From assembly GCF_014642855.1 (NCBI RefSeq), contig NZ_BMJB01000001.1, positions 1,674,001 through 1,738,000 on the forward strand: a stretch of DNA of 64,000 nt, given 5' to 3'. This stretch comes from Edaphobacter acidisoli (lineage in GTDB: Bacteria > Acidobacteriota > Terriglobia > Terriglobales > Acidobacteriaceae). A model generated the notes under the pieces. The model made no database searches. It was not told where the DNA came from and saw only the letters and a list, made by a program, of their open reading frames with translations. Both the position numbers and the translations under genes were made by a program. This document shows positions 14,775-42,393 of the stretch, in pieces (position 1 is the first letter of the stretch; the number at the start of each line of letters is the position of its first letter).

Positions 14775-14923
14775 CGGCAATTCCTCTTTACTACTTACTG
14801 AGACAGCAATCAACCTGCCATTCGCCCGAAAAAGCTCCAGCGAAACAATATTTATTCAACTACACTCCACTCCATGCCGCTGTGCCTCTTTGGTGCTATC
14901 CGGCGTAAACCACTTTCATCACA

Positions 14924-16369
14924 TCAATTTCCACGCCGCAAAAATGCCGGAATATCCAACTCATCGGGTTCTTCACGCACCACCTCTGCAGCCGCCGACC
15001 CATTGTGCGAAGCTACACGAACCGCAGCCTCGTCAACAGGAGTAGACACTGTTGCGCCCCATGTCTCCGCCGATTGGACGCGGACAGATGTACCCTGGTG
15101 AGCCCGCTCCTCCATTCGTGGCGTATCTTCCTCTTCGAGATCGAACTCCGGAAGCTGCTTGTTGTCGCGAAAAAAATCATCGTCGAAGACAGAGGCCGGA
15201 ACGGGAACAAGCTCGGGTTGAATACTCGTCTCGGGTAAATGTGCTGGAACCGTTTGAGATTCGGCTTCGCTGGCAAACCTGGGCGACGATGCTCTCTGAT
15301 TCGTGACTCGCGGCTGTACAGGCACCTCGAAGCGCACTGTCGGCAAAGTGGCCTCAGCAAGCATTCTCTCGCGCCGCTGTGGCATCTCTTGTTGCTTGAA
15401 GCCGGTCGCAATTACAGTGATCTTCACCTCGTCGCCCATCGACTCATCCTGAACCGCGCCGAAGATGATGTTGGCATCTTCATGGGCTGCGTTCTGAATG
15501 ATCGTCGAAGCTTCATTTACTTCGCTTAGCTTCAATGAGCTTGACCCTGTAATGTTGATCAGAATTCCGCGCGCTCCATCAATCGCGCCAGCTTCCAGCA
15601 AAGGCGATGCCATTGCTGCCATTGCTGCCTGCACAGCACGGTCTTTGCCGGAGCGCACAGACGTACCCATCACCGCATAGCCCATGCCCGCCATCGTCGT
15701 CTTCACGTCGGCAAAGTCGCGGTTGATGACGCCAGGAATCGTAATGATGTCCGAAATTCCCTGCACGCCCTGTCGCAGCACATCGTCCGCAATTCGGAAG
15801 CTCTCGAAGAACCCAGCATCTTTCGCAACAGCCAGCAGCTTTTCGTTAGGAATCACAATCACCGTATCAACGGAGTCTAGTAACTCCTGCAAGCCGCGCT
15901 CGGCCTGCATCATTCGGCGCTTACCTTCAAACGCAAATGGACGCGTTACTACGGCTACGGTCAGAGCACCCATCTCGCTAGCGAGCGAAGCGATCACCGG
16001 AGCTGCACCTGTTCCCGTTCCACCGCCAAGGCCCGCTGTCACAAATACCATGTCCGCGCCTTCAAGAGCCTCAATAATCTTGTCCGAATCTTCAAGCGCG
16101 GCCCGCCGCCCTACGTCTGGGTTCGCTCCGGCGCCAAGACCGCTGGTCAGCTTCACCCCAAGCTGTAATTTCACCGGAGCGTTTGACACTTGAAGCGCCT
16201 GTACGTCGGTGTTGGCTGCAATAAATTCCACGCCGACTACGTTGGCTGCAATCATGCGGTTCACAGCGTTGTTTCCGCCACCGCCAACGCCAATGACCTT
16301 GATCTTCGCCCCTTGGGGAACCTCATCGTGATAGTGGATGCGAATGGCGTCGTCGGGCAGATTAGGCAT
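14924..16369 (-). CDS. ftsZ: Cell division GTPase FtsZ
   Basis: A 481-residue tubulin homologue that forms the cytokinetic ring. The tubulin signature GGGTGTG lies at residues 115-121. [12 protein letters not shown] is near the start and NRDFADV is in the T7 region. The protein ends with [11 protein letters not shown], the conserved tail that binds FtsA. A linker of about 150 residues separates the GTPase core from the tail. AAGGAG lies ten bases before the ATG at 16369; another in-frame ATG at 16405 has no well-placed ribosome site. No ftsA or ftsQ is adjacent: the upstream neighbour is a divergent secreted-protein gene. Confidence 0.96.
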
Positions 16370-16673
16370 GTATTCAATACTCCTTATTGGATTTAATTCT
16401 CCCATCCTCTACCCAAAGTAATGCCCCTGTTTTTCCACCATCCGAACCACAGATGGTTCAGTACTCCCAGAGATTCAATACCTTCCCATTTGTCTAAAGT
16501 GCCAATGCATAATTCCTTGCACGTATCTCTCCAAAAAATTAAGCTTTTCCGCGCTATGTTTGTGCTAAAAAGACAGTTACCAATTTGGGCTCTGCCTCCG
16601 ACAGTCGAGTTCTTTTGCAAGCAGAGCCTCCAGTTATCAAAGTTCAGGTGTCCCGCAACGTGTGAGGCCCCAA

Positions 16674-19529
16674 ATGAAAGTCCCTTCCACTCAGCTTCTT
16701 CTTTCCCTTGGCATACTCTTCCTCGCTTCACTTCCTTGCTTCGCACAATGCCCGTCTTCACCAACGATCAGTCAAATACAAGGCAACAAACTTACCACGG
16801 CTGCGGTTATTTCGCCCTGTGCCGGGCAGACCGTAACAACCTCGGGCATTGTCACCGCCATCACTCCCACCGGCTTCTTTATCCAAACGCCCGATCCGAG
16901 CCCACACCCAACTGAAGGCATCTACATCAACATCGGCGTGGCGGCGACGGCTCCAGTTGTCATCGGCAACAACCTTCAGGTCACAGGCGTCGTCTCCACC
17001 GTTCCCCTGACAACACAAAGCCACATCCCCGGAACGGAAATCACTGTTGATCCCACCTCGGGCATCAACCTCATCAGCGGAAATAATCCGCTACCCGCGC
17101 CCATCGTACTCACATCAGCCAATCTTTCCTCCACTGGCAGCATCTACCAGCTCACGCCTTATGAAGGAATGCGTGTCGCCTTCAGCTCGCTCACGGCCGT
17201 CTCTGGCACCGGTGGCACGCTCGATGAGGCCTCCGAGACCTACACCTCCAACGGCCAGTTCTACGCCGTCCTCACCACATCTGGCTCCACTGTCCGCCCG
17301 TTCCGCGGGCCCGGTATCGACGTACGCGATTCCCCCGTCCCCGGCGCCCCATCCGGAGTCGCTCAATTCGACGACAATCCCCAGCGCATCCTCGTCGACT
17401 CCGGCACACCAGTAGGAGGCACTCCCATCGATCTGGCATCCGGAACGAACCTTAATGGCCCCTCTGGCGTACTCGACTTCACTAGCAGTTATGACAACAC
17501 CTACACACCCGCGCGGCTGCTCCTCGATCCCTCTTGGGGTAGAACGAACGTTGATCCATCCACGGCCTTGACCATCCAACCCGTGACAGCGGCAACATCA
17601 AGCCAGTTCACTGTTGCCTCCTTCAACATCGACCGCTTCTATAACACAAGCTCCTCCGACGACATCTACTATGTTCCGCCAAAAGTTGTCGCCAATAATG
17701 GGACCACCTCTACTGGTGCAACTTTCACCACCACCGCCGTCGACGTCAGCTCTGCAGCCTACACTCGCCGCGTACAGAAGACCGCGCTCGCTATTTGCAA
17801 CATCCTCAAGACACCCGACATCATTGCGCTCGAAGGAATCGAAAACCAAAGCGTCGCCAACGACGTCGCTACGCAAGTCAACACTACCTGCTCCGTATCC
17901 TACGCCGCGTTCGGCACCGACAATATCAACACCTACACGCTCGACAACACCGGCATCTCCGTAGGCTTTCTCATCAAGAATTCCACCGTCGATGAGCTCA
18001 ACTTCTTCCAGGGGGGAGGCTGTGCGGCCTACACCAACCCGCCGACTGGCTGCGAAACCTTCACGCCTACCACAGGCAGCGCCACGCCAATCACGAGCAA
18101 CGACCGGCCATGGCTCATTCTCACTGCTGGCATCAAGCGCCCCAATGCCAAGGACTATCCTATCGTCGTCATCGTCAACGATCTCGCCGATATGACCGGA
18201 GAAAATAGCACAACGAGCACAGCAGTACGGCAAAAGAAAGAGCAGCAAGCCGAAGAGGTGTCCACATACATCCAGACCCTTCAGGCCAATGGCCAGCATG
18301 TCATCTCCGTCGGCAACTTCAATGCCTTCGAGTTCTCCGACGGCTACACCGACACACTCGCCACCTACACGAATAACAACGTCCTGCCATCCAATCAGGT
18401 TGTCGAGCCGGGCAAGTCAGGAATCACCACTCCTCCGCTCACCGACATGACCTTGCAGCTGCCTGACACCCCGCCGGACCCGCGATGGTCCTACGTCGAT
18501 AACGGCAACGCCGAAGCTATCGAACACTTCGTCATCACTTCCGACCTCGTGTCAACTTCGCAATTCAGCTACGTGCATTTCAACGCGGATTTTCCTGCGG
18601 TTGATTTGAACGATGCGACCATAGCCACTCGTGTCTCCAGTCATGATGCGGCCATCGGTTACTTTGCTATTCCCGCGCCCGTACTGGGAGTCTTTCTCTC
18701 ACCCAACACGGCCGCCTTCGGCAATGTCACCGTTGGCACATCGTCATCCGCTCAAGCATTTACCTTGACCAATATCGGCGAAGGCCCGGTAACCATCAAC
18801 AGCATAGCCGCCAGCGGTGACTTCTCCGAGACCAACAACTGCCCAGTCGCTCCAACCACTCTCGCGCTCAACGCAAGCTGCACGATCAACGTTGTCTTCA
18901 AGCCAACAGTTGCTGGTCCGCGCACCGGCACGCTCTCTGCTCTAACGAATGCGGGCACATCCGCAGCAACAGCCTCACTCAGCGGCGTCGGAGCTGGGTT
19001 CACTCTCACCGACTCTCAAGGCAATACCAGCACGACAGTCACCACCGCGGCCGGATCAACCGGAACATCCACGCTGGTCTTCACTCCCTTTGGCAATTTC
19101 AGTGGGACCATCTCAACCACCTGCACCGCGCAAGGCACCGCGCCTACAGGAGTCACCTGCACCGCGCCTCAAAGCTTCGCTCTCTCAGGCACAGCAGCCG
19201 TCAATCAGAGTGTTTCTTTTTCCACTACATCGCGCATCCTCGCAAGTGGTCTCGCACTCGGATCCTCACGCTCACCCTGGTCTGCGGCGCTTGTCCTCGC
19301 ATTGGCTGGCCTGCTGATGCTGCTCGCCGGACGCACTCGCCGCCTGGCCCGCATCAGCGGACTGCTCGTCCTTCTGCTAGCCATCTTCATCCCCGCAATC
19401 GGGTGCTCCGGTGGAGGCGGCCCTCACAACAATCCCAACGGCACCCCCGCCGGAAGCTACACCTACGCGGTTACAGCAACCAGCGGCAGCATCAGCGCAA
19501 CCGAGACCGTAACACTCGTCGTACAGTAA
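16674..19529 (+). CDS. Secreted endonuclease/exonuclease/phosphatase-like protein with Hydin-type domain
   Basis: A 951-residue exported protein. A signal peptide ends near residue 24 (LPCFAQ). An OB-like region (about 30-130) precedes an EEP-type domain (about 300-670) with VASFNIDRF and IIALEGIEN. A choice-of-anchor D/ASPM-SPD-2-Hydin-like domain (about 680-780) starts at FGNVTVG. Two hydrophobic stretches near 860-900 precede GCSGGGG and an Ig-like end. The architecture resembles secreted extracellular nucleases. The late catalytic motifs look degraded: GDFN reads GNFN, and SDH reads SSHD, so activity is doubtful. GAGG in front of the ATG at 16674 supports that start. It is divergent from ftsZ. 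Confidence 0.65.
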   Translation: MKVPSTQLLLSLGILFLASLPCFAQCPSSPTISQIQGNKLTTAAVISPCAGQTVTTSGIVTAITPTGFFIQTPDPSPHPTEGIYINIGVAATAPVVIGNNLQVTGVVSTVPLTTQSHIPGTEITVDPTSGINLISGNNPLPAPIVLTSANLSSTGSIYQLTPYEGMRVAFSSLTAVSGTGGTLDEASETYTSNGQFYAVLTTSGSTVRPFRGPGIDVRDSPVPGAPSGVAQFDDNPQRILVDSGTPVGGTPIDLASGTNLNGPSGVLDFTSSYDNTYTPARLLLDPSWGRTNVDPSTALTIQPVTAATSSQFTVASFNIDRFYNTSSSDDIYYVPPKVVANNGTTSTGATFTTTAVDVSSAAYTRRVQKTALAICNILKTPDIIALEGIENQSVANDVATQVNTTCSVSYAAFGTDNINTYTLDNTGISVGFLIKNSTVDELNFFQGGGCAAYTNPPTGCETFTPTTGSATPITSNDRPWLILTAGIKRPNAKDYPIVVIVNDLADMTGENSTTSTAVRQKKEQQAEEVSTYIQTLQANGQHVISVGNFNAFEFSDGYTDTLATYTNNNVLPSNQVVEPGKSGITTPPLTDMTLQLPDTPPDPRWSYVDNGNAEAIEHFVITSDLVSTSQFSYVHFNADFPAVDLNDATIATRVSSHDAAIGYFAIPAPVLGVFLSPNTAAFGNVTVGTSSSAQAFTLTNIGEGPVTINSIAASGDFSETNNCPVAPTTLALNASCTINVVFKPTVAGPRTGTLSALTNAGTSAATASLSGVGAGFTLTDSQGNTSTTVTTAAGSTGTSTLVFTPFGNFSGTISTTCTAQGTAPTGVTCTAPQSFALSGTAAVNQSVSFSTTSRILASGLALGSSRSPWSAALVLALAGLLMLLAGRTRRLARISGLLVLLLAIFIPAIGCSGGGGPHNNPNGTPAGSYTYAVTATSGSISATETVTLVVQ

Positions 19530-28181: not shown

Positions 28182-29759
28182 ATGCTCTTTACCCGCCGCC
28201 GTGCCCTCCAGTTGATGGCCTCCGGAGCATCTGCGCTCGCCCTCCGCCCATCCTTCGCACAACAAAGCGCCAGCCTCCCCATCGCCGCAGGCCCATTCAA
28301 GGGCACGCGCGAATCGCTGGCTGCCTACACTGTCCCCGCGTGGTTCGCTGAAGCCAAATTCGGCATCTGGTCACACTGGGGCCCGCAGTCCGCCGTTGAA
28401 TACGGCGATTGGTACGCCCGCACCATGTACATCCAAGGCTCCAGCGAGTACTACTACCACGTCGAAACCTACGGCCATCCCTCCAAAGTCGGCTACAAAG
28501 ACCTCATCCCCCAATTCAAAGCCGCGCGCTGGGATCCTGACCATCTCATGGACCTCTACGTCAAGGCTGGCGCAAAGTACTTCTTCTCTATGGGTGTCCA
28601 CCACGACAACTTCGACATGTGGAACTCCAAATATCAACCACGCTGGAACGCCGTCGCCACCGGCCCCCAACGCGACATCGTCGGCGAGTGGAAGACCGCC
28701 GCCCGCAAACGCGGCCTGCGCTTCGGCGTCAGCGAGCACCTCTCCAACTCCTTCGACTGGTTCGCCCCCGCGCACACCAGCGACTCCACCGGCCCGCTCG
28801 CCGGCGTCCCCTACGACGGCACACTCTCCGACTACGCCGACCTCTACCACGACTACTCCGGCATGCCTGCCAACTTCGCCAAAACCGCAGAAGCCATGGG
28901 CCGCGTCGCACCCACCTGGTGGAAGCTCCAGTACTTTAACCGCGTCAAAGACCTCATCGACCAGCACCAGCCCGACATCCTCTACACAGACGGAGGCATT
29001 CCCTTCGATGAGTACGGCTTCTCGCTCGTCGCCAATCTCTACAACGTCAGCGCCGCCCGCCACAATGGCGCGGTCGAAGCCGTCTACACCAGCAAGACGC
29101 GCACCGACTGCGAAACCGGCACCTGCGCACTCGACCGCGAGCGTGGCGTCCTCGACGACATCTCACCCACGCCCTGGCAGACCGACACCTGCATTGGGGG
29201 CTGGCACTACAAACGTGGCATCAAATACAAGTCCGCGAAAAAAGTCATCGACCTGCTGGTCGATATCGTCAGCAAAAACGGCAATCTGCTCCTCAACTTC
29301 CCCCTGCCCAACTCCGGCGAACTCGATTACGAAGAGATGGTCACGCTCAATGGCATCACCGCATGGATGCAGACCAACAGCGAAGGCATCTACGCCACAC
29401 GCCCGTGGAAAGCCTACGGCGAAGGCCCCGCAATGAAGGTCGTCATTCCATCCAACGGTAAAGAGTTCGATCCCAACGAAGGCAGGAAGCCAGACCTCGG
29501 TCCAACGGACATCCGCTTCACCACCAAACCCGGGATCCTCTTCGCATTCGTTCAAGGCTGGCCCGGCGCAGAAGCCGTCATCACATCGCTCGGCACAACC
29601 AGCGCACAGAACCCACCCAAAATCACAAGCGCCACCATGCTAGGCCACGATGCGCAACTGAAGTTCACGCAAAGCAGCGACGCACTCCGCGTCAAACTCC
29701 CCGGCAACCGTCCAAGCACAGCCGACATCGGTATCGCACTCAAGCTCACCACCGCCTGA
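28182..29759 (+). CDS. Alpha-L-fucosidase, GH29
   Basis: A 525-residue exported glycosidase. The leader FTRRRALQLMASGASALAL is Tat-like, and cleavage likely follows SFAQ. The GH29 catalytic region shows KFGIWSHWGPQS, EYGDWYARTMY, VHHDNFDMWNS and DILYTDGGIPF, in which Asp270 fits the nucleophile position. The product would remove terminal fucose from plant or microbial glycans. The final 120 residues form a beta-rich C-terminal domain. It shares a terminator with the convergent SDR gene. Confidence 0.9.
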   Translation: MLFTRRRALQLMASGASALALRPSFAQQSASLPIAAGPFKGTRESLAAYTVPAWFAEAKFGIWSHWGPQSAVEYGDWYARTMYIQGSSEYYYHVETYGHPSKVGYKDLIPQFKAARWDPDHLMDLYVKAGAKYFFSMGVHHDNFDMWNSKYQPRWNAVATGPQRDIVGEWKTAARKRGLRFGVSEHLSNSFDWFAPAHTSDSTGPLAGVPYDGTLSDYADLYHDYSGMPANFAKTAEAMGRVAPTWWKLQYFNRVKDLIDQHQPDILYTDGGIPFDEYGFSLVANLYNVSAARHNGAVEAVYTSKTRTDCETGTCALDRERGVLDDISPTPWQTDTCIGGWHYKRGIKYKSAKKVIDLLVDIVSKNGNLLLNFPLPNSGELDYEEMVTLNGITAWMQTNSEGIYATRPWKAYGEGPAMKVVIPSNGKEFDPNEGRKPDLGPTDIRFTTKPGILFAFVQGWPGAEAVITSLGTTSAQNPPKITSATMLGHDAQLKFTQSSDALRVKLPGNRPSTADIGIALKLTTA

Positions 29760-29832: not shown

Positions 29833-30609
29833 TTACTGATTCACACCGCTGGCCAAAAATCCACCATCCACCACCAAAATCTCCCCAGTAACAAACGCCG
29901 AAGCATCGCTGGCCAAAAAGATCGCCGACCCCACCAACTCCTCCGTCTTGCCAAACCGCCCCATCGGCGTCCGCATCAACAGCTCCTTGCCGCGCTCGCT
30001 CTCATCCAGCAGCTTCGCATTCAATGCAGTCCGAAACACTCCAGGAGCAATCGCATTCACAGTCACGCCCTGCGAGCTCCACTCCACCGCCAGCGACTTC
30101 GTCAGCGCGCCAACCGCGGCCTTGCTCGCCGCGTAGGCCGTCACTTCCTTCAGACTCACAAACGTATTCAGCGACGCGATGTTGATGATGCGTCCATACC
30201 CGCGCTCCAGCATGTGCTTGCCGAAGATCTGGCAGGCCCGCAGCGTACCCGTCACGTTCGTGTTCATGATGTCGTTCCAAGTTTCTTCCGGAACCGTCAA
30301 CGTAGGCTCGCGCTTGATCTTGCCCGCGCAATTAATCAGAATGTCCACCTTGCCAAACGCTTTCAACGTTCCATCAAGCAGGGTCTGCAGAGTCGCGCGA
30401 TCGCCCACGTCCGAGGTCAGCCGCAGCGACCGCCGCCCCGTCGCTTCAATTGCCTTGGCGGCCTCGTCTACCTGCTCCTGACGGCGCGAACTTGCCACCA
30501 CATCGGCCCCGGCCTCTGCCAGTCCGATTGCCATCGCCAGGCCGATACCCGACGTTCCGCCCACCACTACAGCCGACTTGCCGCTCAGATCAAACAACGG
30601 ATGACCCAT
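29833..30609 (-). CDS. Short-chain dehydrogenase, gluconate 5-dehydrogenase/KduD type
   Basis: A 258-residue classical SDR. It has the cofactor loop GGTSGIG at 18-24, NCAG at 93-96, catalytic Ser146, Tyr159 and Lys163, and the closing VTGEILVVDGG. It most resembles IdnO/KduD-type sugar-acid reductases. In this operon a 5-keto acid reductase acting on fructuronate or tagaturonate would fit, because no UxaB/UxuB gene is present; that is an inference. The ATG at 30609 has GGAGAGG nine bases before it. A TTG overlapping the gntK stop at 30633 lacks such a site. Last gene of the operon. Confidence 0.8.
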   Translation of the reverse strand: MGHPLFDLSGKSAVVVGGTSGIGLAMAIGLAEAGADVVASSRRQEQVDEAAKAIEATGRRSLRLTSDVGDRATLQTLLDGTLKAFGKVDILINCAGKIKREPTLTVPEETWNDIMNTNVTGTLRACQIFGKHMLERGYGRIINIASLNTFVSLKEVTAYAASKAAVGALTKSLAVEWSSQGVTVNAIAPGVFRTALNAKLLDESERGKELLMRTPMGRFGKTEELVGSAIFLASDASAFVTGEILVVDGGFLASGVNQ

Positions 30610-30629
30610 CGAAAATGTCCTCTCCTCTT

Positions 30630-31151
30630 TCAAAAAATCTGTTGCCCATGAGCTGTTCGAGAAGCTGCAAGATACTCCAGTATCCGGCCCGCAACCTCCT
30701 CCGGCGCGCGGTCGTTGACGACATGCAGCGCATCCGTGGGTCTCTCCAGAGTAGCAAGCTGGCTGTCCAGAAGCTTCGGATTCATATATTCATGCCGGCG
30801 TTTTGCCAGACGCGTCGCAATCAGCTCTTTCGGCCCATCCAAAAATATAAACTGCAGATGAGCAGGAACCACACCGTCTTTCAGCGTCTCCTGATATTTC
30901 ACCTTCAGTGCAGAACACGCCAGCACACCGCTCGTGCCATCGCCGTCCCACCCACGCAGCAGCCGGTTCAAGTCGTGCAACCAGGGCGCGCGCTCCTCAT
31001 CGGTCAGCGCGGTGCCGCCCGCCATCTTCTGCTTGTGTGATGGAGGAAAGTAATCGTCAGCATCGGCGAACATCCATCCCGCACGATTGGCAATAAGCCG
31101 GCCAATCGTCGTCTTTCCGCATCCGCTCACACCCATCAGCACCGCAATCAT
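30630..31151 (-). CDS. gntK: Gluconokinase
   Basis: A 173-residue P-loop kinase that phosphorylates D-gluconate to 6-phosphogluconate. Walker A is GVSGCGKTT at 7-15. DADDYFPPSHKQKMAGGTALTDEER holds the substrate-binding segment of the GntK family. ACSALKVKYQ and FLDG follow. The length is normal. It lies between kdgK and the SDR gene in the hexuronate operon. Gluconate is not a normal intermediate of uronate breakdown, which makes this neighbour informative. Confidence 0.92.
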   Translation of the reverse strand: MIAVLMGVSGCGKTTIGRLIANRAGWMFADADDYFPPSHKQKMAGGTALTDEERAPWLHDLNRLLRGWDGDGTSGVLACSALKVKYQETLKDGVVPAHLQFIFLDGPKELIATRLAKRRHEYMNPKLLDSQLATLERPTDALHVVNDRAPEEVAGRILEYLAASRTAHGQQIF

Positions 31152-31225
31152 TCACACTCCCGCGTTGGCGGACGCGCCACAGGCCCCGAGTACAACAGGC
31201 CATAGACGCGCCCGCTTCCGAGCCT

Positions 31226-32308
31226 CTACCTCTGAATCCGCGCAGAGCCGCCGCTGGCAAACGCCTTCACCTGGTCCAGCGTCGCCATCGTCGTATCGCC
31301 TGGGAAGGTCGTCATCAGCGCGCCATGCGCCCAGCCTAGTTTGATCGCCTCTTCCGGCGTGTTTCCGTTCAGCAGCCCATAGATAAAGCCGGCAGCAAAG
31401 CCGTCGCCGCCGCCCACACGGTCCAGCACATCCAATTCGCACGTTGGAGCATACACAGCTTTGCCGTTCACCCACGCCACAGCGCTCCACGTGTGATGGT
31501 TCGTCGTATGCACCTCGCGCAGAGTCGTCGCCACGACCTTCACCTTCGGGAACTTCTTCACGACGTTCTCAATCATCCCGAGAAACACGCTCGTATCCAG
31601 CTTCGACTTGGCCGTCACCTCCGGCCCGGCCACCCCAAGTCCCTTCTGTAGGTCCTCTTCGTTGCCCACCAGCACGTCCACGTTCTCGACAATCGCGCCC
31701 AACACCTTGTGCGCACGCTCCATGCCGCCCTGCGGCTTCCACAGCTTCTCCCGGTAGTTCAAATCAAAAGAGCAGATCGCGCCAGCGGCCTTAGCAGCCT
31801 TCATCGCCTCAATCGCCAACTCCGCCGTCGTCTCCGAAAGCGATGCAAAAATTCCGCCGCTATGGAACCATCGCACGCCCTCACCGAAGATCGCCTTCCA
31901 GTCGAAGTCGCCCGGCTTCATCAGCGCCGCCGCCTCGTTGCATCGGTTGTAGAACACCACCGGAGCGCGCACTCCCAGCCCCTGGTCGCTATACACCGTG
32001 GCCATATTCGGCCCGCGCACGCCGTCATGCTCAAACCGCTTGTAAAGCGGACGCACGCCCATCGCCAGCACGCGCTCGGCAATCAGGTCGCCAATCGGAT
32101 AGTTCACCATCGCCGTCGCAATGCCCGTGCGCTGCTTAAAACAATCCGACAGGTTCGCCGCCACATTGAACTCGCCGCCACTCACATGCACCGCAAAGTT
32201 CGTGGCTTTGCGAAACGGGATGATCCCCGGGTCCAGCCGGTTCACCATTGCACCCAGCGAAAGCAGATCCAGTGATCCCTTCTCAGGGATATTGAAGCCT
32301 AGACTCAC
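31226..32308 (-). CDS. kdgK: PfkB-family sugar kinase, probable 2-keto-3-deoxygluconate kinase
   Basis: A 360-residue ribokinase-family enzyme. The N-terminus has VSGGEFNVAANLSD, a sugar-binding Gly-Gly segment. The C-terminus has DRVGGGDGFAAGFIYGLL, with the anion hole and catalytic Asp. The gene context (uxaC, uxaE) points to 2-keto-3-deoxygluconate, whose phosphorylation gives KDPG for the Entner-Doudoroff aldolase. A GTG at 32308 follows a perfect GAGGAGG; an in-frame TTG at 32368 would add 20 basic, unconserved residues. KDG specificity is inferred; another keto-sugar is possible. Confidence 0.8.
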   Translation of the reverse strand: MSLGFNIPEKGSLDLLSLGAMVNRLDPGIIPFRKATNFAVHVSGGEFNVAANLSDCFKQRTGIATAMVNYPIGDLIAERVLAMGVRPLYKRFEHDGVRGPNMATVYSDQGLGVRAPVVFYNRCNEAAALMKPGDFDWKAIFGEGVRWFHSGGIFASLSETTAELAIEAMKAAKAAGAICSFDLNYREKLWKPQGGMERAHKVLGAIVENVDVLVGNEEDLQKGLGVAGPEVTAKSKLDTSVFLGMIENVVKKFPKVKVVATTLREVHTTNHHTWSAVAWVNGKAVYAPTCELDVLDRVGGGDGFAAGFIYGLLNGNTPEEAIKLGWAHGALMTTFPGDTTMATLDQVKAFASGGSARIQR

Positions 32309-32376
32309 GACATTCCTCCTCAAAGTTCTCCGACGCCTTCCAAGGCCATCGAGTTTACTCTCTCTCAACGACTTTG

Positions 32377-33639
32377 TTACTTGCCCAGAAACACAGGTTT
32401 GATGTGGCGCTCATAAAGATTAGTTGTCACATTTCGCGCAACCACCTCTTCATTCGCCTCCAGAGCCTTCAGATATCGATCACCCATCTTCGCCGCCACC
32501 TTGAATCCCACATGCAGCAACTGACGGAAGCTTGGGTTGTAAGCCTTATTGCCCTGATCATGCCGCAGTGCTGACGTGTATTGCGCGCTGGTCCATCCAT
32601 TCACTTCTTCTGGCTTCGGCAACTTCGCAGGATCAATATCGATCACCGTCGCATAAGGCGCGCACAACTCTTCGGCATGAGCAAACGCCTCGGCATAAAC
32701 CTCCTTGGCAATCTCCAACCCTGTCCCGCCAGCTTCAGCCAGGCCAATCAGCTCCTCAAGCCAAGTCGTGCCCGCAGTCTTCATGTGGACGCCCGCACCA
32801 AACTTCTTCACCCCATCATGAATCGCTTTATAGATCGAAAACTTGTCCGAACCCGAGTGCACACTCAGCTTCAAATTCTCCGGCAGCCCATAGCGCTTCA
32901 CCGCAAACGCAATCGTCGCCAGATCATCGGTGAACTCCTTCGTGAACTGCGCCACATCGCCCACATAGTCCACACCCTTGTTGAACCGCCCGGTAAACTT
33001 CGGCGCAATCGTCTGGATCGGAATCTTCTCATCCGCAATCGCCGCCAGAATAATCAGCAACTCCACCGGCGTCTGCGGCGAATCAGTCTCGTCCATCGAG
33101 ACCTCAGCAATAAACTTGCCCTCGCCCTTCTTCTCCACTAGATACCGATAGATCTTCCCTGCATCCTGCACCGCGGCCAGAAACTTATTCGCCACCGCCG
33201 TCACAAACGCCACATCCGTCTTGAACGGCTGATTGATCTGCGGAATCGTCACCGTCCCCACCAACTCCGGATGCCGCGCCACAAACGCAGCAACGTCCTT
33301 CGCATCCGCAGGCTGGCCAATCATCTCCGCCACATCCAGCGTAAAGAAATCGCACGGCGTCAGAAAGCGGTCCACCGTCTTCAAATTGATATGGTCTGCA
33401 TCCAGAAAGTAAGGCTTCGTCCACTGCAGCGCCTTCACCGCTGCATCAGCCTCAACCCGCGTCTGGCTCGGCTCCGAACCGATGATTGTGTGCTCGCGGT
33501 TCGATTTGTTCCACACCGGAACTACCTCAACGCCGGCTTCACCCGCCATCACGCAGGCCGCCAACTGCGCCTTTGCCTGGTGCGCAAATCTGTCCCCCAC
33601 ACCCAAAGAAAACTTAGGAAGCCTCAACCCCTCACTCAT
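32377..33639 (-). CDS. uxaE: Tagaturonate epimerase UxaE-like
   Basis: A 420-residue cytoplasmic protein. The opening MSEGLRLPKFSLGVGDRF, the segment YFLDADHINLKTVDRF, SMDETDSPQTPVELL and LKLSVHSGSDKFSIY match the family I know as UxaE (described from Thermotoga). That enzyme interconverts D-tagaturonate and D-fructuronate, linking galacturonate to the glucuronate branch. The neighbour uxaC supplies the substrate. A palindromic operator-like site lies 28-46 bp before the start. Confidence 0.8.
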   Translation of the reverse strand: MSEGLRLPKFSLGVGDRFAHQAKAQLAACVMAGEAGVEVVPVWNKSNREHTIIGSEPSQTRVEADAAVKALQWTKPYFLDADHINLKTVDRFLTPCDFFTLDVAEMIGQPADAKDVAAFVARHPELVGTVTIPQINQPFKTDVAFVTAVANKFLAAVQDAGKIYRYLVEKKGEGKFIAEVSMDETDSPQTPVELLIILAAIADEKIPIQTIAPKFTGRFNKGVDYVGDVAQFTKEFTDDLATIAFAVKRYGLPENLKLSVHSGSDKFSIYKAIHDGVKKFGAGVHMKTAGTTWLEELIGLAEAGGTGLEIAKEVYAEAFAHAEELCAPYATVIDIDPAKLPKPEEVNGWTSAQYTSALRHDQGNKAYNPSFRQLLHVGFKVAAKMGDRYLKALEANEEVVARNVTTNLYERHIKPVFLGK

Positions 33640-33666
33640 CGCAAACGCTCTTTTCTACCCTCAATT

Positions 33667-33685
33667 AAATTGGTTCGACCAATTT
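33667..33685. promoter_or_regulatory. GntR-type operator palindrome upstream of uxaE
   Basis: AAATTGGT-TCG-ACCAATTT: two perfect eight-base half-sites around a three-base centre. The half-site ATTGGT/ACCAAT is like that of enterobacterial UxuR/ExuR operators, which have a shorter centre. It lies 28 bp before the uxaE start. A related site lies before uxaC at 36433. No regulator gene is in view. Confidence 0.65.
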
Positions 33686-33728
33686 CGGATTGTCCCAGCA
33701 TACCGGCAAACCCACCCAGTTGCAAACA

Positions 33729-35006
33729 CTAATCCTTGAACCGCCCCTCATAAGCCCAAAGCCCCAGCCCAGGATTCGAGATATAGAAGATCTCCTCCCC
33801 ATCCACCACATTCCACCCATCCTTCAGCTTCGCCGGGTCATACTTGGCCGAATACTCCTTCAAATCCCCATAAGCAAAGTGCACACTCTCAATCTCCTCG
33901 CGCGTCAGGTGCCCAGGACAATACCGAATCGTGAACCGCCCCTCGCTCGATCCGTGAATCAAATGCGCCGCCGCACTCAGGTTCCTCGCCAGCGCCGGAT
34001 CTTCCTTCACCAACTCCAGCGTCTTCGGAGTCCCACAGTACCCATACTTGCGAATCAGCTTGTCAATCGCCGCATCCTCGCCAAACTCATGCACCCCGGG
34101 AGCCAGCACAATCAACTCCGCATTGTCCGCCAGCGCCATCCGCGTCCGGTACACACTCTTGTTCCCCAGCCAGGTGCTCCTGAACTCATGCGGATCAAGA
34201 AACACAACCGCCTTCTTGATCTCACGGTTCATCATCTGAAAGTTCACCTTCAAACTCAGCGCCGCTGCCAGCTCAAAACACTCCGTATCGTCACCGATAT
34301 ACAACCCGCGAATTACCAGATCACCAGCGTCATTCTTCCCCACCACCGTCTGCACATACACAATTGGCGGCATGTGCTTGCCGAAGTGCTCGCTCGCATA
34401 GTTCAGCACCCGCCGCACAGGAGTATCCGCGCGACCCATCATGCGCTCCATGCCATACACCGCACCCAGAAAATGGCTGCGATGAATCCCAATCGACCCA
34501 CCCGTCCCCACAAAAATATTCTTGTTGTAGTTCGCCATGCCGATCACTTCATGCGGAACCACCTGCCCAATTGACAAAATCAAATCATGCCCGCCATCCC
34601 GCAGCAGCTTATTCACCTGCGCCGGCCACGGATAATCAACCTTGCCCTCACTCACGTCATACAAAAAGCTTCCCGGCACCTCGCCCAGCGTCACCACATC
34701 GTTCCGCCAGTCATGCACGCGAAATAGCCCACGCGGAGTCGCCCCAAACATCGTCGCAATCTCCGTATCGGTCATCGCCTTATGCGTGCCCAGCGCAGGC
34801 AGCACGTCCGTCAGGCGCTCGCCATAGTACTGCCAGGCCATCGCCGTCAACACACCGCTCTGCGAATGCATCCGCGTAAAGTCCGGCGGCACAGCCAGCA
34901 CCTTCTTGCGAGCGCCCAGCTTATCCAGCGCAGAAAACAGCCCCGCCTTCACCTCAGCCAGAGACATCTCGGTTGTCGGCGATCCAGCACCAAAATACAG
35001 ACTCAT
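33729..35006 (-). CDS. LarA-like nickel-pincer enzyme (lactate racemase superfamily)
   Basis: A 425-residue cytoplasmic protein. VPPDFTR (39-45) is the LarA-type N-terminal motif. LGTHK carries His75, VVPHEVIG carries His152 and the nearby NYNK carries Lys162, the positions where LarA has its two catalytic His and cofactor-linked Lys. GIHRSH (174-179) follows. LarA homologues use a nickel pincer nucleotide to shuttle hydride at alpha-hydroxy acids; one studied group epimerises gluconate to mannonate at C2. In this operon a mannonate/gluconate or altronate epimerisation would fit, but this is inferred. Its start is 13 bp after uxaC, so both share one message. larB/C/E cofactor genes are not in the window. 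Confidence 0.75.
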   Translation of the reverse strand: MSLYFGAGSPTTEMSLAEVKAGLFSALDKLGARKKVLAVPPDFTRMHSQSGVLTAMAWQYYGERLTDVLPALGTHKAMTDTEIATMFGATPRGLFRVHDWRNDVVTLGEVPGSFLYDVSEGKVDYPWPAQVNKLLRDGGHDLILSIGQVVPHEVIGMANYNKNIFVGTGGSIGIHRSHFLGAVYGMERMMGRADTPVRRVLNYASEHFGKHMPPIVYVQTVVGKNDAGDLVIRGLYIGDDTECFELAAALSLKVNFQMMNREIKKAVVFLDPHEFRSTWLGNKSVYRTRMALADNAELIVLAPGVHEFGEDAAIDKLIRKYGYCGTPKTLELVKEDPALARNLSAAAHLIHGSSEGRFTIRYCPGHLTREEIESVHFAYGDLKEYSAKYDPAKLKDGWNVVDGEEIFYISNPGLGLWAYEGRFKD

Positions 35007-35019
35007 CGCTCTCTCCGAA

Positions 35020-36417
35020 CTACAGCTTGTAAGCCTTCTTCACCAGATCGACCGTCAACTGACGAGCCACTTCAAACGCCTCATCCTCATCCAGCCTATG
35101 CTCGGCAACCAACCGCCCCAGAAACGCGCAGTCGATGCGTCGCGCCACATCATGCCGTGCCGGAATCGAAAGAAACGCACGCGTGTCATCGTTGAACCCA
35201 ACCGTGTTGTAGAACCCAGCCGTCTCCGTCGCCTGTTCGCGGAACCGCATCATCCCCTCAGGCGAATCCTGGAACCACCACGGCGGCCCTAGCCGCAGCG
35301 ACGGATAGTGACCCGCCAGCGGCGCCAGCTCACGCGAGTAAGTCGTCTCATCCAGTGTGAACAAGATAAACGTCAGCCGCGAATCGTTCCCGTACTTGTT
35401 CAACAGAGGCCGCAACCCGCGCACATAGTCCGTAGGAGCAGGAATGTCCGCGCCCTTATCGCGCCCAAACTTCTCGAACAGCTTTTGATTATGGTTTCGC
35501 ACCGACCCCGGATGAAGCTGCATCGTCAGCCCATCCTCCACGCTCATGCCGGCCATCTCCGTCAGCATCTGCGCCTGGAAAAGCTCAATATCCTGCGAGC
35601 AAGCGCGCCCCGTCAAAATCCGTCCATACAGTGCCGAAGCCTCCTGCTCCGAAAGATCCGCTGTCTGCGCCGTCAGATGTCCGTGGTCAGTCGCCGTCGC
35701 GCCCATCGACTTGAAGAACGCGCGCCGGTTCCGCAGAGCATTCAGATAGCCCTTATACGTCCCCACATTCTCGCCCGACAGCGCGCCCAGCTTCTCAATG
35801 TTCTCGACAAACCCTACATACTCCGCATCAATCACCGAATCCGGCCGGAACGTCGGCAATACCCTGCCCTTCCACCCAGAAGCTCGCATTGCCTTGTGAT
35901 AATCCAGCGTGTCGATCGCCGTATCGGTCGTCGAAAGCACCTCAATATTGAAGCTCTCAAACAGCGCCCGAGGCCGAAACTCCGGCGTCTCCAGCCTCTT
36001 CGCAATCAGGTCGTAGTACTCGTCCGCATTGTCCGGTCCCAGCCGCTTCTTCAGACCAAACTGCTTCTCGAACGCATAGTCGATCCACAGCCGCGTAGGC
36101 GTTCCGCGAAACAAATAATAGTGCTTCGCGAATATCCGCCAAACCTCTCGCGGGTCCGCCGACTGCTTCCCATCCACCTGCGGAATCCCCAGCGACTCCA
36201 TCGAAACGCCCTGCGAGTACAGCATCCGGAAGATGTAATGGTCAGGCTGAATGAACAATGCCGTGGGGTTCGGAAACGCGCCATTCTCCGCAAACCAGCG
36301 CGGGTCGCAATGTCCGTGCGGCGAGATGATCGGCAAATTCCTGATAGCCTCATATAACTTCACCGCTACCGCACGCGCCGCACCCTCTGCCGGAAACAGC
36401 CTGTTTTCATTCAGCAT
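35020..36417 (-). CDS. uxaC: Uronate isomerase
   Basis: A 465-residue enzyme of the amidohydrolase superfamily that converts D-glucuronate to D-fructuronate and D-galacturonate to D-tagaturonate. ISPHGHCDPRWF holds the HxH metal motif (about residues 34-36). DHYIFRMLYSQG, the mid-protein LPTFRPDSV, and MQLHPGSVRNHN near 280 are all characteristic. The length is as in E. coli UxaC. It is the first gene of the six-gene operon, with an operator-like palindrome about 20 bp upstream. Confidence 0.95.
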   Translation of the reverse strand: MLNENRLFPAEGAARAVAVKLYEAIRNLPIISPHGHCDPRWFAENGAFPNPTALFIQPDHYIFRMLYSQGVSMESLGIPQVDGKQSADPREVWRIFAKHYYLFRGTPTRLWIDYAFEKQFGLKKRLGPDNADEYYDLIAKRLETPEFRPRALFESFNIEVLSTTDTAIDTLDYHKAMRASGWKGRVLPTFRPDSVIDAEYVGFVENIEKLGALSGENVGTYKGYLNALRNRRAFFKSMGATATDHGHLTAQTADLSEQEASALYGRILTGRACSQDIELFQAQMLTEMAGMSVEDGLTMQLHPGSVRNHNQKLFEKFGRDKGADIPAPTDYVRGLRPLLNKYGNDSRLTFILFTLDETTYSRELAPLAGHYPSLRLGPPWWFQDSPEGMMRFREQATETAGFYNTVGFNDDTRAFLSIPARHDVARRIDCAFLGRLVAEHRLDEDEAFEVARQLTVDLVKKAYKL

Positions 36418-36449: not shown

Positions 36450-37061
36450 TCCCGTTTCAAAACAATAACATTTAGAAGCCTATCAAATTTGTTCGCACCA
36501 CGAGCAATATCTTTATCGTGTCTCAGAAATTGCGCTTTTATGCCATTCAAGCCCCTTATGAAACATCGTCTTAACGCACTGGGATTCTGCTCTAGTGTTA
36601 GCTAGCCGCCGCGATGGTGCCAGTAGCAGATCAGCGTTGCCCAGTATGGGTACTGCTCTATCAACAGGAATTATTCCTGCTCTGCCTAACCAGAAGTACG
36701 AAGCGTTGTCTAACGGGCAAAAGAACAGGCGATTGTTGCGAATTCCATTTTTCGTCACTGGCTGATGTTAACGATTGGAACTGTTTCACGTTGTATTGCG
36801 TAGAAGAGGTCGAGGGCAGATCGGCAAGAAGAGCTTGATTCTGAAGCTAGCCCTGAACAGATTGGTAAGTTCTCGATGATCTGAGTTTTGTCGTGCGATC
36901 AGGGCCGCAGTGAACGATACCTCGTTGTATTTCATCTTTTGAATCTCTGAAGAACTTCTGGAGTGTCTTGCGCGCCATAGGCGTGACCGCAGTCATGCGT
37001 GCGATGGAGCGAATGAGAAGTCGTGTCTTAAACGCGCCCTGCTGGGCATGTGGGAGGACGT
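36450..37061. other. Intergenic region between divergent uxaC and TPR genes
   Basis: About 610 bp with lower G+C than the neighbours. The first part should contain the uxaC promoter. The rest holds only short frames with poor coding character; I see no RNA gene, no repeat shared with other gaps and no clear regulator. GGGAGGAC at its end is the ribosome site of the TPR gene. Some of it may be decayed coding sequence. Confidence 0.4.
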
Positions 37062-40269: not shown

Positions 40270-42393
40270 TTACGGCGTTGGGGTTGGCGGCAGAGGGATG
40301 CCTAGGGTGCTTGCCGGTGGGATGGTGTGGTTAAGGGCCCAGCCACGTTGGACGGAGCGGATCTGGTCGATGCGGTTGAGCCAGAGCTGGATGGTCTGGT
40401 CGTAGCGCTCGAGGTTGTTGGTGAGGAAGTAGGGGCGGTTGGATTTGAGCCACGCTTCTTTGTAGAGGTCGCGGATGAGCGAGTAGCCGTTGCGGAGGTC
40501 TTCGAGCTTGCCGTTGACGCCGTTGATCTCTCCGAGGCGGCGAGCGACTTCGACGCGGTCTTCGCGCTGGCGGGAGTTTTGCAGGGCATAGGCAGTGGCG
40601 TAGTCCTGAGCGATCTCGTCGGCGATCTGGAATTTGAGGCCGATGAGGTCCATGCGGCGCGCGCCGAGGTCGAGGGCATCGAGGGCATCGTCTTCGCGGA
40701 GGTTGGGGTTGGCGTTGCGGGCTTTGGCGATGAGGATGATGGCTTGCTCGGCGTCGAGGCGCACCTGCGAGAGGATGGGACGGATTTGTCCGGCCTCGCG
40801 CTGGCCGTCGGGTGAGAAGGGATCGATCCAGAAGACGAGGTCGGAGCCGTCGGCTTCGAGGGGCGAGTCGTGGAGGAGCTGGTGGGCGGCCATCATTTCT
40901 TTCTGGGCCTGATCGATGTCGCCGGTGAGGTCGCCGTGGAAGTTTGCACCGAAGGCTGACTGGAAGTCGGGTATGGAGGCTTCGCCCTGGTGCCAGGCGG
41001 CTTCGGCGCCGAAGAGGATGCCGTACCAGTTGTTGTTGGCGAGGGCTTCGCCGTCGTCGTCCCAGATGGTGTTGAGCTGGCCGGTGGCGCCGAGGCGCTG
41101 GCCGTCGAGGGTGAACTGCTGGATGTTGTTGAGGCCGTTGTTGTAGTTGGGATAGACGCGCGACCAGTTGTTGATGCCGGGAGCGACCCAGGTTTCCATG
41201 TGCGCGTCGGTGAAGGGCTTGATGAAGCGGTCGTAGCCGCGCGGCTGCGGGTTATAGACCCATGGGACGGCGATGACGGTTTGCTTGAAGCTGTCGGGCA
41301 TCTGCTTGACGAGGTCGGGGTCGTGCATGGCGATGTCTCCCCAGAAGAGGAGCTTGCGATGGAGCGGCTGGAGTGCGGTGACGATCTTCTGGAGATAGTC
41401 GAGATAGACGGCACCGAGGCCCTGCGCGTCGACCTGTGGCTTGGTCTGGCCTTTGCCGAGATCGACCGTTTCGTCTGCTCCTAGATGGAGGAATGGGCCG
41501 GGGTAGATCTGCGCCAGTTCGGAGAACATGTCTTTGGTGACCTGGAGCGAGCCGGGCTGGCCGGGCGCGAGGACGTATCCGTGCGGGGTTTCGGCGAGTG
41601 GTGCGTACTGCTCCCAGTTGAGCATGTAGTGGAGATGGCCGAAGGCTTCCTGCTCGGGGATGATGGTGACGTGATATTGGGCGGCGTAGGCGACGAGCTC
41701 GCGCGCCTGCTGCTGCGTGAGGGTGCCGCCGGGAGGTCCCATGAGCGGATGCGAGAGGTACTGCATGGTGTGCTCGAAGTAGGGCGAGTAGATGTTGATC
41801 TTGTAGGCGGCGATGGTGCGGATCTGCTTCTTCTGGAAGTCGAGTGTGGGAACGGGGCCGCGAGAGAGATCGTCGTCGAGGCCGCGGTACTTGAGCGCGG
41901 GCCAGTCGCGGATGGTGGCGGTGTGGAGGATGGCATTCGTTCCGTTGCCGACGATGAGCTGCTTGACGGTCTGGATGGCGTAGAAGACACCGGAGGCGGT
42001 GAAGCCGGTGAGGGCGACACCTTGTCTGTCGGGGATGATGGCGTAGCCTTCGGGCTGGATCTGGGGTGTGGGTTCGGTGGATTCGCCGGGCAGGAGTGAG
42101 TCTTTGTAGATGGACTTCGACAGTGGCGAACCGTAGCGCTCGATGAGGATGTGGACGGGAGCGGAGTCGGAGACGGTGATGCCGCGCTGGGTGAGGAAGT
42201 CCTTGAGGTCGTTGGTGGCGAAGGTGTCGTCGGCGTCGCAGGGTGTGGCGCAGGTGACGGAGATGCCGTTCGTGAGAGGCTGGTCGGCGGCTGGACGGAC
42301 TTCGCGGGGAACCGGGATGAGATGGAGAGGGTTCTGGGCCGAGGCAAAGGTGGCAAAGGCCAGGGTGAGGAGGCCGAGGCGAATTTTCAACAT
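40270..42393 (-). CDS. Beta-N-acetylhexosaminidase, GH20
   Basis: A 707-residue exported glycosidase. A signal peptide ends at about residue 20 (ATFASAQ). A GH20 N-terminal domain (22-165) has HLIPVPREVRP and GYAIIP. The catalytic barrel starts at YRGLDDDLSRG (169-178), with HVTIIPEQEAFGHLHYML and the catalytic pair Asp307-Glu308 in HLGADETVDLG. A helical region of about 180 residues follows. It would release GlcNAc/GalNAc ends from chitin or peptidoglycan fragments. The 260 bp before it separate it from the divergent porin gene. Confidence 0.9.
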   Translation of the reverse strand: MLKIRLGLLTLAFATFASAQNPLHLIPVPREVRPAADQPLTNGISVTCATPCDADDTFATNDLKDFLTQRGITVSDSAPVHILIERYGSPLSKSIYKDSLLPGESTEPTPQIQPEGYAIIPDRQGVALTGFTASGVFYAIQTVKQLIVGNGTNAILHTATIRDWPALKYRGLDDDLSRGPVPTLDFQKKQIRTIAAYKINIYSPYFEHTMQYLSHPLMGPPGGTLTQQQARELVAYAAQYHVTIIPEQEAFGHLHYMLNWEQYAPLAETPHGYVLAPGQPGSLQVTKDMFSELAQIYPGPFLHLGADETVDLGKGQTKPQVDAQGLGAVYLDYLQKIVTALQPLHRKLLFWGDIAMHDPDLVKQMPDSFKQTVIAVPWVYNPQPRGYDRFIKPFTDAHMETWVAPGINNWSRVYPNYNNGLNNIQQFTLDGQRLGATGQLNTIWDDDGEALANNNWYGILFGAEAAWHQGEASIPDFQSAFGANFHGDLTGDIDQAQKEMMAAHQLLHDSPLEADGSDLVFWIDPFSPDGQREAGQIRPILSQVRLDAEQAIILIAKARNANPNLREDDALDALDLGARRMDLIGLKFQIADEIAQDYATAYALQNSRQREDRVEVARRLGEINGVNGKLEDLRNGYSLIRDLYKEAWLKSNRPYFLTNNLERYDQTIQLWLNRIDQIRSVQRGWALNHTIPPASTLGIPLPPTPTP

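Follow-up and report, generated by a model that had tools for sequence, protein, structure and literature searches.

Epimerization of mannonate to gluconate was proposed by Rodionova et al. in 2012, as told in PMC6978723, which also mentions gntE homologues in Lactobacillus, Acidobacterium and Terriglobus. The UxaR locus of Thermotoga maritima consists of gnd, uxaE, uxaD, gntE and gntK (PMC3750489); mannonate oxidoreductase activity of T. maritima UxaD is reported from Rodionova 2012 (PMC5673643), and conversion of D-mannonate to D-gluconate was demonstrated in 2020 for T. maritima GntE2, the protein in PDB entry 4nar (PMC7583248). In this study, a six-gene operon of Edaphobacter acidisoli was compared with these systems. 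It lies on the minus strand at positions 29833–36417 of a 64,000-nt stretch of contig NZ_BMJB01000001.1 (positions 1,674,001 to 1,738,000; the window in the following) and encodes two hexuronate isomerization enzymes, a LarA-like protein, two kinases and a short-chain dehydrogenase/reductase (SDR). The operon probably directs the carbon of D-galacturonate and D-glucuronate to the pentose phosphate pathway via gluconate. An earlier note on this DNA had called such a wiring unreported, a claim contradicted by the 2012 proposal; the pathway is already known and is not new. Two points are new: group-18 LarA is linked with gnd or gntK in different phyla, and the identity of the PfkB kinase is doubtful.

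Gene content and comparison with known hexuronate routes

Families were assigned with NCBIfam and Pfam models and their cut-offs. Along the minus strand, from 36417 to 29833, the order of the six open reading frames (ORFs) was observed to be that given in the earlier note, although the label kdgK given there to the PfkB gene is doubtful, judging from the comparisons below. The genes, in window coordinates, are as follows.

35020..36417, minus strand: uxaC, glucuronate/galacturonate isomerase (NF002794, 577.9 bits, cut-off 387; PF02614)
33729..35006, minus strand: LarA homologue of group 18, predicted nickel-pincer nucleotide (NPN)-dependent D-mannonate/D-gluconate 2-epimerase (NF052594, 649.2 bits, cut-off 500)
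32377..33639, minus strand: uxaE, tagaturonate/fructuronate epimerase (PF16257, 160.3 bits, cut-off 27.1; PDB UxaE 6ilb, E 1.6e-26)
31226..32368, minus strand: PfkB kinase of the larA-linked clade, labelled 'kdgK' (PF00294, 62.2 bits, cut-off 25.8)
30630..31151, minus strand: gntK, P-loop (GntK/IdnK-type) gluconokinase (TIGR01313, 132.4 bits, cut-off 113.75)
29833..30633, likely ATG start 30609, minus strand: SDR oxidoreductase, predicted fructuronate reductase (PF13561)

Neighbouring ORFs are spaced by fewer than 100 bases each. The overlap of the SDR gene with gntK is an artefact of the TTG called as the SDR start, an ATG 24 bases further in being likelier, and, as judged from homologues, the true start of the PfkB kinase is probably some 20 codons downstream of the listed one. 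The NCBIfam scan of the UxaE protein gave no model at E ≤ 0.001. None of the six genes is of the UxuA, UxaA or UxuB type, which bears out the earlier note's statement that the operon carries neither a uxuA/uxaA dehydratase nor a UxaB/UxuB reductase.

In the proposed pathway, UxaC would act on both hexuronates, forming tagaturonate from galacturonate and fructuronate from glucuronate; UxaE would epimerize tagaturonate to fructuronate, and the SDR would reduce fructuronate to D-mannonate. The LarA homologue would then invert C2 of D-mannonate with the nickel-pincer nucleotide, yielding D-gluconate, presumably by the proton-coupled hydride transfer on this cofactor that is described in the LarA literature (PMC7583248). 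GntK would phosphorylate gluconate to 6-phosphogluconate, from which the product of a distant gnd would form ribulose 5-phosphate, CO2 and NADPH. If both enzymes use NADPH, the Gnd step would repay the reducing power spent by the SDR; redox neutrality is noted in PMC6978723 for the route described there. Alongside, a classical branch (UxuA, paired with an SDR at another locus, then KdgK2 and Eda) would probably draw on the same mannonate pool. The succession from hexuronate through mannonate and gluconate to 6-phosphogluconate, drawn from galacturonate in the earlier note, fits the genes, and it is the best explanation of the operon because of the LarA family assignment, residues and fold, the lar genes of the genome, and the presence of gnd or gntK near larA in relatives.

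Similarity to the T. maritima UxaR locus lies in the presence of UxaE, an SDR mannonate oxidoreductase (here predicted), a LarA-type epimerase and a gluconokinase in one locus (PMC3750489; PMC6978723; PMC5673643). All members of the Thermotoga-type gene set (UxaC, UxaE, SDR, GntE-like LarA, gluconokinase and Gnd) were found in the E. acidisoli genome, the SDR and the LarA homologue being included on their predicted substrates. T. maritima is described as also having a second, classical operon, kdgA-kdgK-uxuB-uxuA. The two systems differ in that T. maritima GntE belongs to group 20 and scores below the NF052594 cut-off, whereas the operon's LarA belongs to group 18; that the T. maritima gluconokinase is listed as FGGY (PMC3245297), whereas that of the operon is of the P-loop type; and that the Edaphobacter operon includes uxaC and a PfkB kinase, excludes gnd, and resides in a genome in which no UxuB-family protein was found. 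Compared with the GntE proteins of groups 19 and 20, the operon's LarA is alike in catalytic, cofactor and loop residues, in fold, and in gluconate or hexuronate gene neighbours; it differs in group and shares 24% identity with GntE2 in a fold alignment.

The isomerase-phosphoketolase route of Lactobacillus suebicus likewise connects galacturonate isomerization to 6-phosphogluconate with no dehydratase step (PMC6978723). It differs in that phosphorylation precedes epimerization, and the epimerase and kinase genes are not named in that paper. With the classical isomerase pathway (UxaC, UxuB, UxuA, KdgK, Eda) the operon has UxaC in common, and uxuA, kdgK2 and eda are located elsewhere in the genome; unlike that pathway, the operon has no dehydratase.

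The LarA-like protein, its cofactor genes and its gene neighbours

The model matched by the LarA-like protein, NF052594 (NPN_18_hexonate), is named 'nickel-dependent putative hexonate epimerase', and the Lar_N domain PF09861 was also detected (30.4 bits, cut-off 23.3). Among the matches listed, its closest relatives were Edaphobacter and Granulicella records, the best with 89% identity. Searched by sequence, 4nar was the sole convincing relative among solved structures, with E 1.5e-32 for the single sequence and 2e-47 for a 12-sequence profile. The predicted structure had a mean pLDDT (predicted local distance difference test) of 86.8, with cofactor-loop residues 154–162 poorly predicted; in a fold search with this model, 4nar was again the top match (E 1.5e-28, the alignment giving the identity stated above), and the 19 matches at E ≤ 0.001 were without exception LarA-family entries.

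The catalytic and NPN-binding residues of LarA, D72, R75, H108, H174, K184, H200 and K298, have counterparts in the operon's protein; D42, R45, H75, H152, K162, H178 and K283 of the latter were invariant in all 12 proteins aligned. The alignment with 4nar preserves the Asp, Arg, His, His-Glu, Lys, His and Trp...Lys positions, which are catalytic, cofactor-binding or signature residues according to PMC7583248. Of the hexonate signature, E153-V154 directly after H152 and W279 in helix 11 are present; an E-V/S loop and the W are among the features that PMC7583248 gives as common to LarA groups 18, 19 and 20, a third being located in helix 14. By NF052594 the protein is a member of group 18 and not of groups 19/20, the GntE proper, and for group 18 the prediction in PMC7583248 is epimerization of 'a hexonate', no more specific. 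On this evidence the protein is a predicted D-mannonate/D-gluconate 2-epimerase. Two other identities were rejected: the malate racemase model gave 27 bits against a cut-off of 500, and the residues after the catalytic His are E-V here and F-F in the lactate racemase LarA.

In a survey of 396 Acidobacteriota genomes, 45 were above the NF052594 cut-off and 155 had a match at E ≤ 1e-3, many of the latter probably being other LarA groups since they fall below the cut-off. All 21 listed genomes of the same genus, including that of E. acidisoli, were above the cut-off, and the 20 misses that were listed, of 241 in total, all lie outside the genus.

The genome search for larB, larC and larE that the earlier note had suggested found all three above curated cut-offs, larB adjoining larC and larE located elsewhere. 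A Lar_N search of the genome found one LarA only. As far as the models used can tell, the nickel-pincer cofactor pathway thus serves one enzyme, the LarA of the operon. In addition, larE lies approximately 7 kb from the kduI-kdgK2-eda operon and distant from larB-larC (L101:6801-7670 and 14474-17091 of the same genome).

Gene neighbourhoods were examined in 80 loci, those of the best 80 of 572 relatives when ranked by how similar they are to the operon's LarA; being picked in this way, they are not a random sample. Neighbours were tallied by tblastn at E ≤ 1e-15, absence meaning no match in the fetched DNA, and in 27 of the 80 loci one flank or both are shorter than 4 kb. Phyla were taken from record titles, some of which look misbinned. 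Within 5 kb of larA, gnd was found in 37 of the 80 loci and gntK in 21; no locus had both, and 58 had either. Relaxing the threshold for gntK to E ≤ 1e-3 still gave 21 loci, and when the count was restricted to the 53 loci with 4 kb or more on each side, gnd was found in 26, gntK in 18 and either in 44. The gnd-linked loci came from eight phyla (Bacteroidota 22, Ignavibacteriota 5, Planctomycetota 4, Acidobacteriota 2, and Calditrichota, Chlorobiota, Fidelibacterota and Verrucomicrobiota 1 each), and 20 of the 21 gntK-linked loci were from Acidobacteriota. In the fetched 10 kb around larA, larC was present in 9/80 loci, larE in 9/80, and either in 10/80.

The combination of uxaC, larA, uxaE, gntK and SDR occurred in 8 loci, one of which (L006) adds a PfkB gene; the SDRs counted belong to a large family and orthology is not implied. 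Six acidobacterial loci (L010, L011, L014, L016, L022 and L035) had uxaC, larA, gntK and SDR with no uxaE match, and therefore still have a complete glucuronate-to-6-phosphogluconate gene set; in L035, kdgK and eda follow directly behind these genes. From the linkage to gnd or gntK across phyla, group-18 LarA gains a concrete substrate prediction, D-mannonate/D-gluconate, and the distribution suggests that in Bacteroidota and Acidobacteriota hexuronate carbon often passes through a nickel enzyme on its way to the pentose phosphate pathway. As a separate observation, larA genes 77% and 69% identical to that of the window were found on contigs labelled Rhodanobacteraceae (L023) and Arcobacter (L045), respectively, which look like binning errors or transfer.

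The PfkB kinase

The best solved match of the operon's PfkB protein was the 2-keto-3-deoxygluconate (KDG) kinase 2afb (E 3.4e-47). Like the KDG kinases 2afb and 1v19, it belongs to the PfkB family and has the Asp, presumably catalytic, of the G-G/A-G-D motif. In a phylogenetic tree, however, the larA-linked PfkB proteins formed one clade of 32 rows (support 99/96.9), and 17 KdgK-type rows, 14 of which sit beside eda, were placed on the opposite side together with 3 solved PfkB kinases. The larA-linked proteins comprise clade A, with the window protein and 9 others, and clade B, with 22 that are mostly from Bacteroidota.

Residues of the pocket also separate the two groups. Three residues after a conserved Arg, in a region which we take to be a KDG contact in the solved KDG kinases, Glu was found in all 32 larA-linked rows, whereas the 17 KdgK-type rows have Ser (15) or Thr (2), and the solved 2afb, 4gm6, 3ktn and 1v19 have Ser. 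The residue following the catalytic Asp is Gly in 32/32 larA-linked rows versus 1/17 KdgK-type rows.

By tblastn class, 33 of the 80 loci have a clade A/B PfkB gene no more than 3 kb from larA (31 of the 80, plus the window, in the tree), and in many relatives this gene lies between the SDR gene and larA. Among these 33 loci, 26 have gnd and 2 have gntK (Fisher p 0.0006, uncorrected for relatedness). KdgK linked to eda and PfkB linked to larA co-occur in several loci. The simplest reading of these patterns is that the larA-linked PfkB kinase would provide 6-phosphogluconate where GntK is missing. The operon's own protein may phosphorylate gluconate or mannonate at C6, with KDG kinase as the alternative.

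We tentatively extend this, with slightly less than even confidence, to the whole clade: its members would phosphorylate D-gluconate or D-mannonate at C6 as a third gluconokinase family beside P-loop GntK and FGGY, and in Bacteroidota, Ignavibacteriota, Planctomycetota, Verrucomicrobiota and others they would act as the kinase in a pathway made up of SDR, PfkB, LarA and Gnd, while the Acidobacteriaceae would have recruited P-loop GntK and mostly lost PfkB, with the E. acidisoli genome and loci L006 and L009 keeping both. Several points argue against a gluconokinase. The operon's PfkB protein is 45% identical to KdgK2 of the same genome; clade B is attached by a long branch (3.01) and the tree program issued a warning about adjoining long branches, so that the union of clades A and B could be inflated in spite of its support; E. 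acidisoli carries GntK as well as the larA-linked PfkB; and 9 of the 37 gnd-linked loci have no gntK, clade A/B PfkB or pyrophosphate (PPi)-type phosphofructokinase-like gene within range. No PfkB-type gluconokinase was found in a literature search that had most subscription papers outside its reach. The comparison marks out a set of PfkB kinases for which a KDG kinase is the closest solved relative, although their pocket residues and pathway position suggest a different sugar acid.

A PPi-type phosphofructokinase-like protein is encoded close to larA in 3 of the 80 loci (L053:7810-9090, L078:7733-9013 and L058:143-1423). The two that were scanned, those of L058 and L078, correspond to PRK14072, and in L053 and L078 the gene is accompanied by one for a HAD-like-looking protein. 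This phosphofructokinase-like protein may be yet another enzyme that serves at the kinase step.

Genome inventory, the reductase and alternative routes

The genome searched is 4.2 Mb in size and 99.55% complete. A mannonate dehydratase gene, uxuA, was found at C1:160007 (451.7 bits, cut-off 191), approximately 1.5 Mb from the operon, with its own SDR gene overlapping the uxuA end and a divergent regulator. A separate kduI-kdgK2-eda operon is located at C1:295–298 kb, with a KduD gene close by; kdgK2 was assigned by PfkB models and its position beside eda. The phrase 'instead of dehydratases' in the earlier note is therefore accurate for the operon and not for the genome, and the idea of a dehydratase-free genome was rejected. 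The search for uxaA showed three UxaA/GarD-family (GD_AH_C) proteins, one a galactarate dehydratase above cut-off and two not placed by the models. Of two ILVD/EDD proteins, one best matched the xylonate dehydratase model (above cut-off) and the other the dihydroxy-acid dehydratase model (331 of 573 residues scanned), so that no phosphogluconate dehydratase (Edd) was seen. Two 6-phosphogluconate dehydrogenases, a gnd and another beside zwf, gave matches at C1:2.10 and 2.21 Mb, the operon being at 1.70–1.71 Mb. From this inventory both the gluconate route and the KDG route can be drawn, and since uxuA, kdgK2 and eda are present elsewhere the classical route can run too, as the earlier note had thought possible; the operon's 'kdgK', which it had taken as the sign of that route, is a doubtful one in view of the clade and the pocket residues. 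The divergent regulator beside uxuA (L084:10377-11663; C1 at approximately 161.4–162.7 kb) consists, by Pfam, of an IclR-type helix-turn-helix fused to a periplasmic-binding-protein-like domain, a combination that seems unusual.

Members of the UxuB/UxaB family (PF01232, polyol-type dehydrogenase) were not found in the genome, and 7 of 14 control genomes gave a match. Because no reductase of this family was found, fructuronate reduction is probably carried out by an SDR. The best model of the operon's SDR was kduD (253.8 bits, below the cut-off of 338.85). Among the 25 models listed of 236, it passed a single one, a broad subfamily named glucose 1-dehydrogenase (224 versus 215), and exceeded the cut-off of no sugar-acid-specific model, including KduD, gluconate 5-dehydrogenase and D-mannonate oxidoreductase. 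Identity as KduD was rejected, a better KduD being present near kduI (338.1 bits, itself just under the cut-off). A PDB search placed 1vl8 (T. maritima TM0441) in the top four (E 7.7e-53). We take UxaD of T. maritima to be TM0441. This assumption is consistent with the locus in PMC3750489, and 1vl8 is given as TM0441 in PMC3922912. Outside the Acidobacteriota, all five SDRs near larA that were scanned exceeded the D-mannonate oxidoreductase cut-off of 281 (362.8 to 389.4). The operon's SDR is thus a predicted fructuronate reductase.

A number of observations weigh against the gluconate route. The SDR reached 226 bits against the D-mannonate oxidoreductase cut-off, and the SDR of the acidobacterial locus L060 was also below it (234.5). 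The operon contains no gnd, and 22 of the 80 loci, some of them short, lack gnd and gntK within 5 kb. The full-length acidobacterial loci L020, L021, L026 and L028 have larA with no uxaC, uxaE, SDR, gntK or gnd in the fetched flanks, L026 having kduI. No assay of a group-18 LarA was found in the literature search, which most subscription papers lay outside. With uxuA, kdgK2 and eda present, all mannonate could go to KDG; the search for mannonate dehydratases covered UxuA, and enolase-type ones were not searched for.

It is also the case that L. suebicus gets to 6-phosphogluconate by phosphorylating mannonate first (PMC6978723). By analogy to the activities in its extracts, GntK or PfkB could phosphorylate mannonate and LarA could epimerize 6-phosphomannonate to 6-phosphogluconate, and the position of the PfkB gene between SDR and larA in many relatives would agree with such an order. 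We regard this as unlikely, considering that the LarA homologues of T. maritima and C. glutamicum use unphosphorylated D-mannonate (PMC7583248), that the operon's GntK passes the gluconokinase cut-off, and that the L. suebicus epimerase gene goes unnamed in PMC6978723. In another arrangement, the operon would mainly feed the classical route: the SDR would make mannonate, the distant UxuA would make KDG, the operon's PfkB would phosphorylate KDG and Eda would split the product, leaving LarA and GntK to salvage gluconate. The genome does have uxuA and eda, a KDG kinase is the best solved match of the PfkB protein, KduD is the best model of the SDR, and in L035 kdgK and eda stand right behind the larA gene group. 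However, uxuA is 1.5 Mb distant and has an SDR of its own, just 2 of the 80 loci have uxuA no more than 10 kb from larA, kduI-kdgK2-eda forms a separate operon with a KduD nearby, and the PfkB protein groups with neither the eda-linked nor the solved KDG kinases, which makes this arrangement quite improbable.

A different substrate of LarA, another hexonate or an aldarate (e.g. altronate converted to allonate) with gntK serving free gluconate, appears very unlikely. It would be in keeping with PMC7583248, which gives group 18 only 'a hexonate' and suspects a different native substrate for group 19, and with the two UxaA/GarD-family proteins of unsettled substrate in the genome; the linkage of larA to gnd across eight phyla argues against it, as does the genome's lack of any detected UxaB-family protein to make altronate. 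The gluconate route is therefore preferred over these readings.

Upstream of uxaC, one further feature was noted.

36475..36494, minus strand: block upstream of uxaC (alignment of 12 upstream regions)

Conservation of this block varied over the 12 aligned regions (the window and 11 relatives), and it may be a candidate operator or promoter element. A fuzzy pattern derived for it matched 5′ of uxaC in 5 relatives, with one further weak match in L058; the pattern is too strict, missing the window's own copy, and with this same limit it gave no match at uxuA in the fetched DNA. Two glycoside hydrolase (GH) genes are located near the operon in the window, one for a GH29 alpha-L-fucosidase at 28182–29759 and a GH20-type gene at 40270–42393, relatives of whose protein are encoded in 13 of the 80 larA loci.

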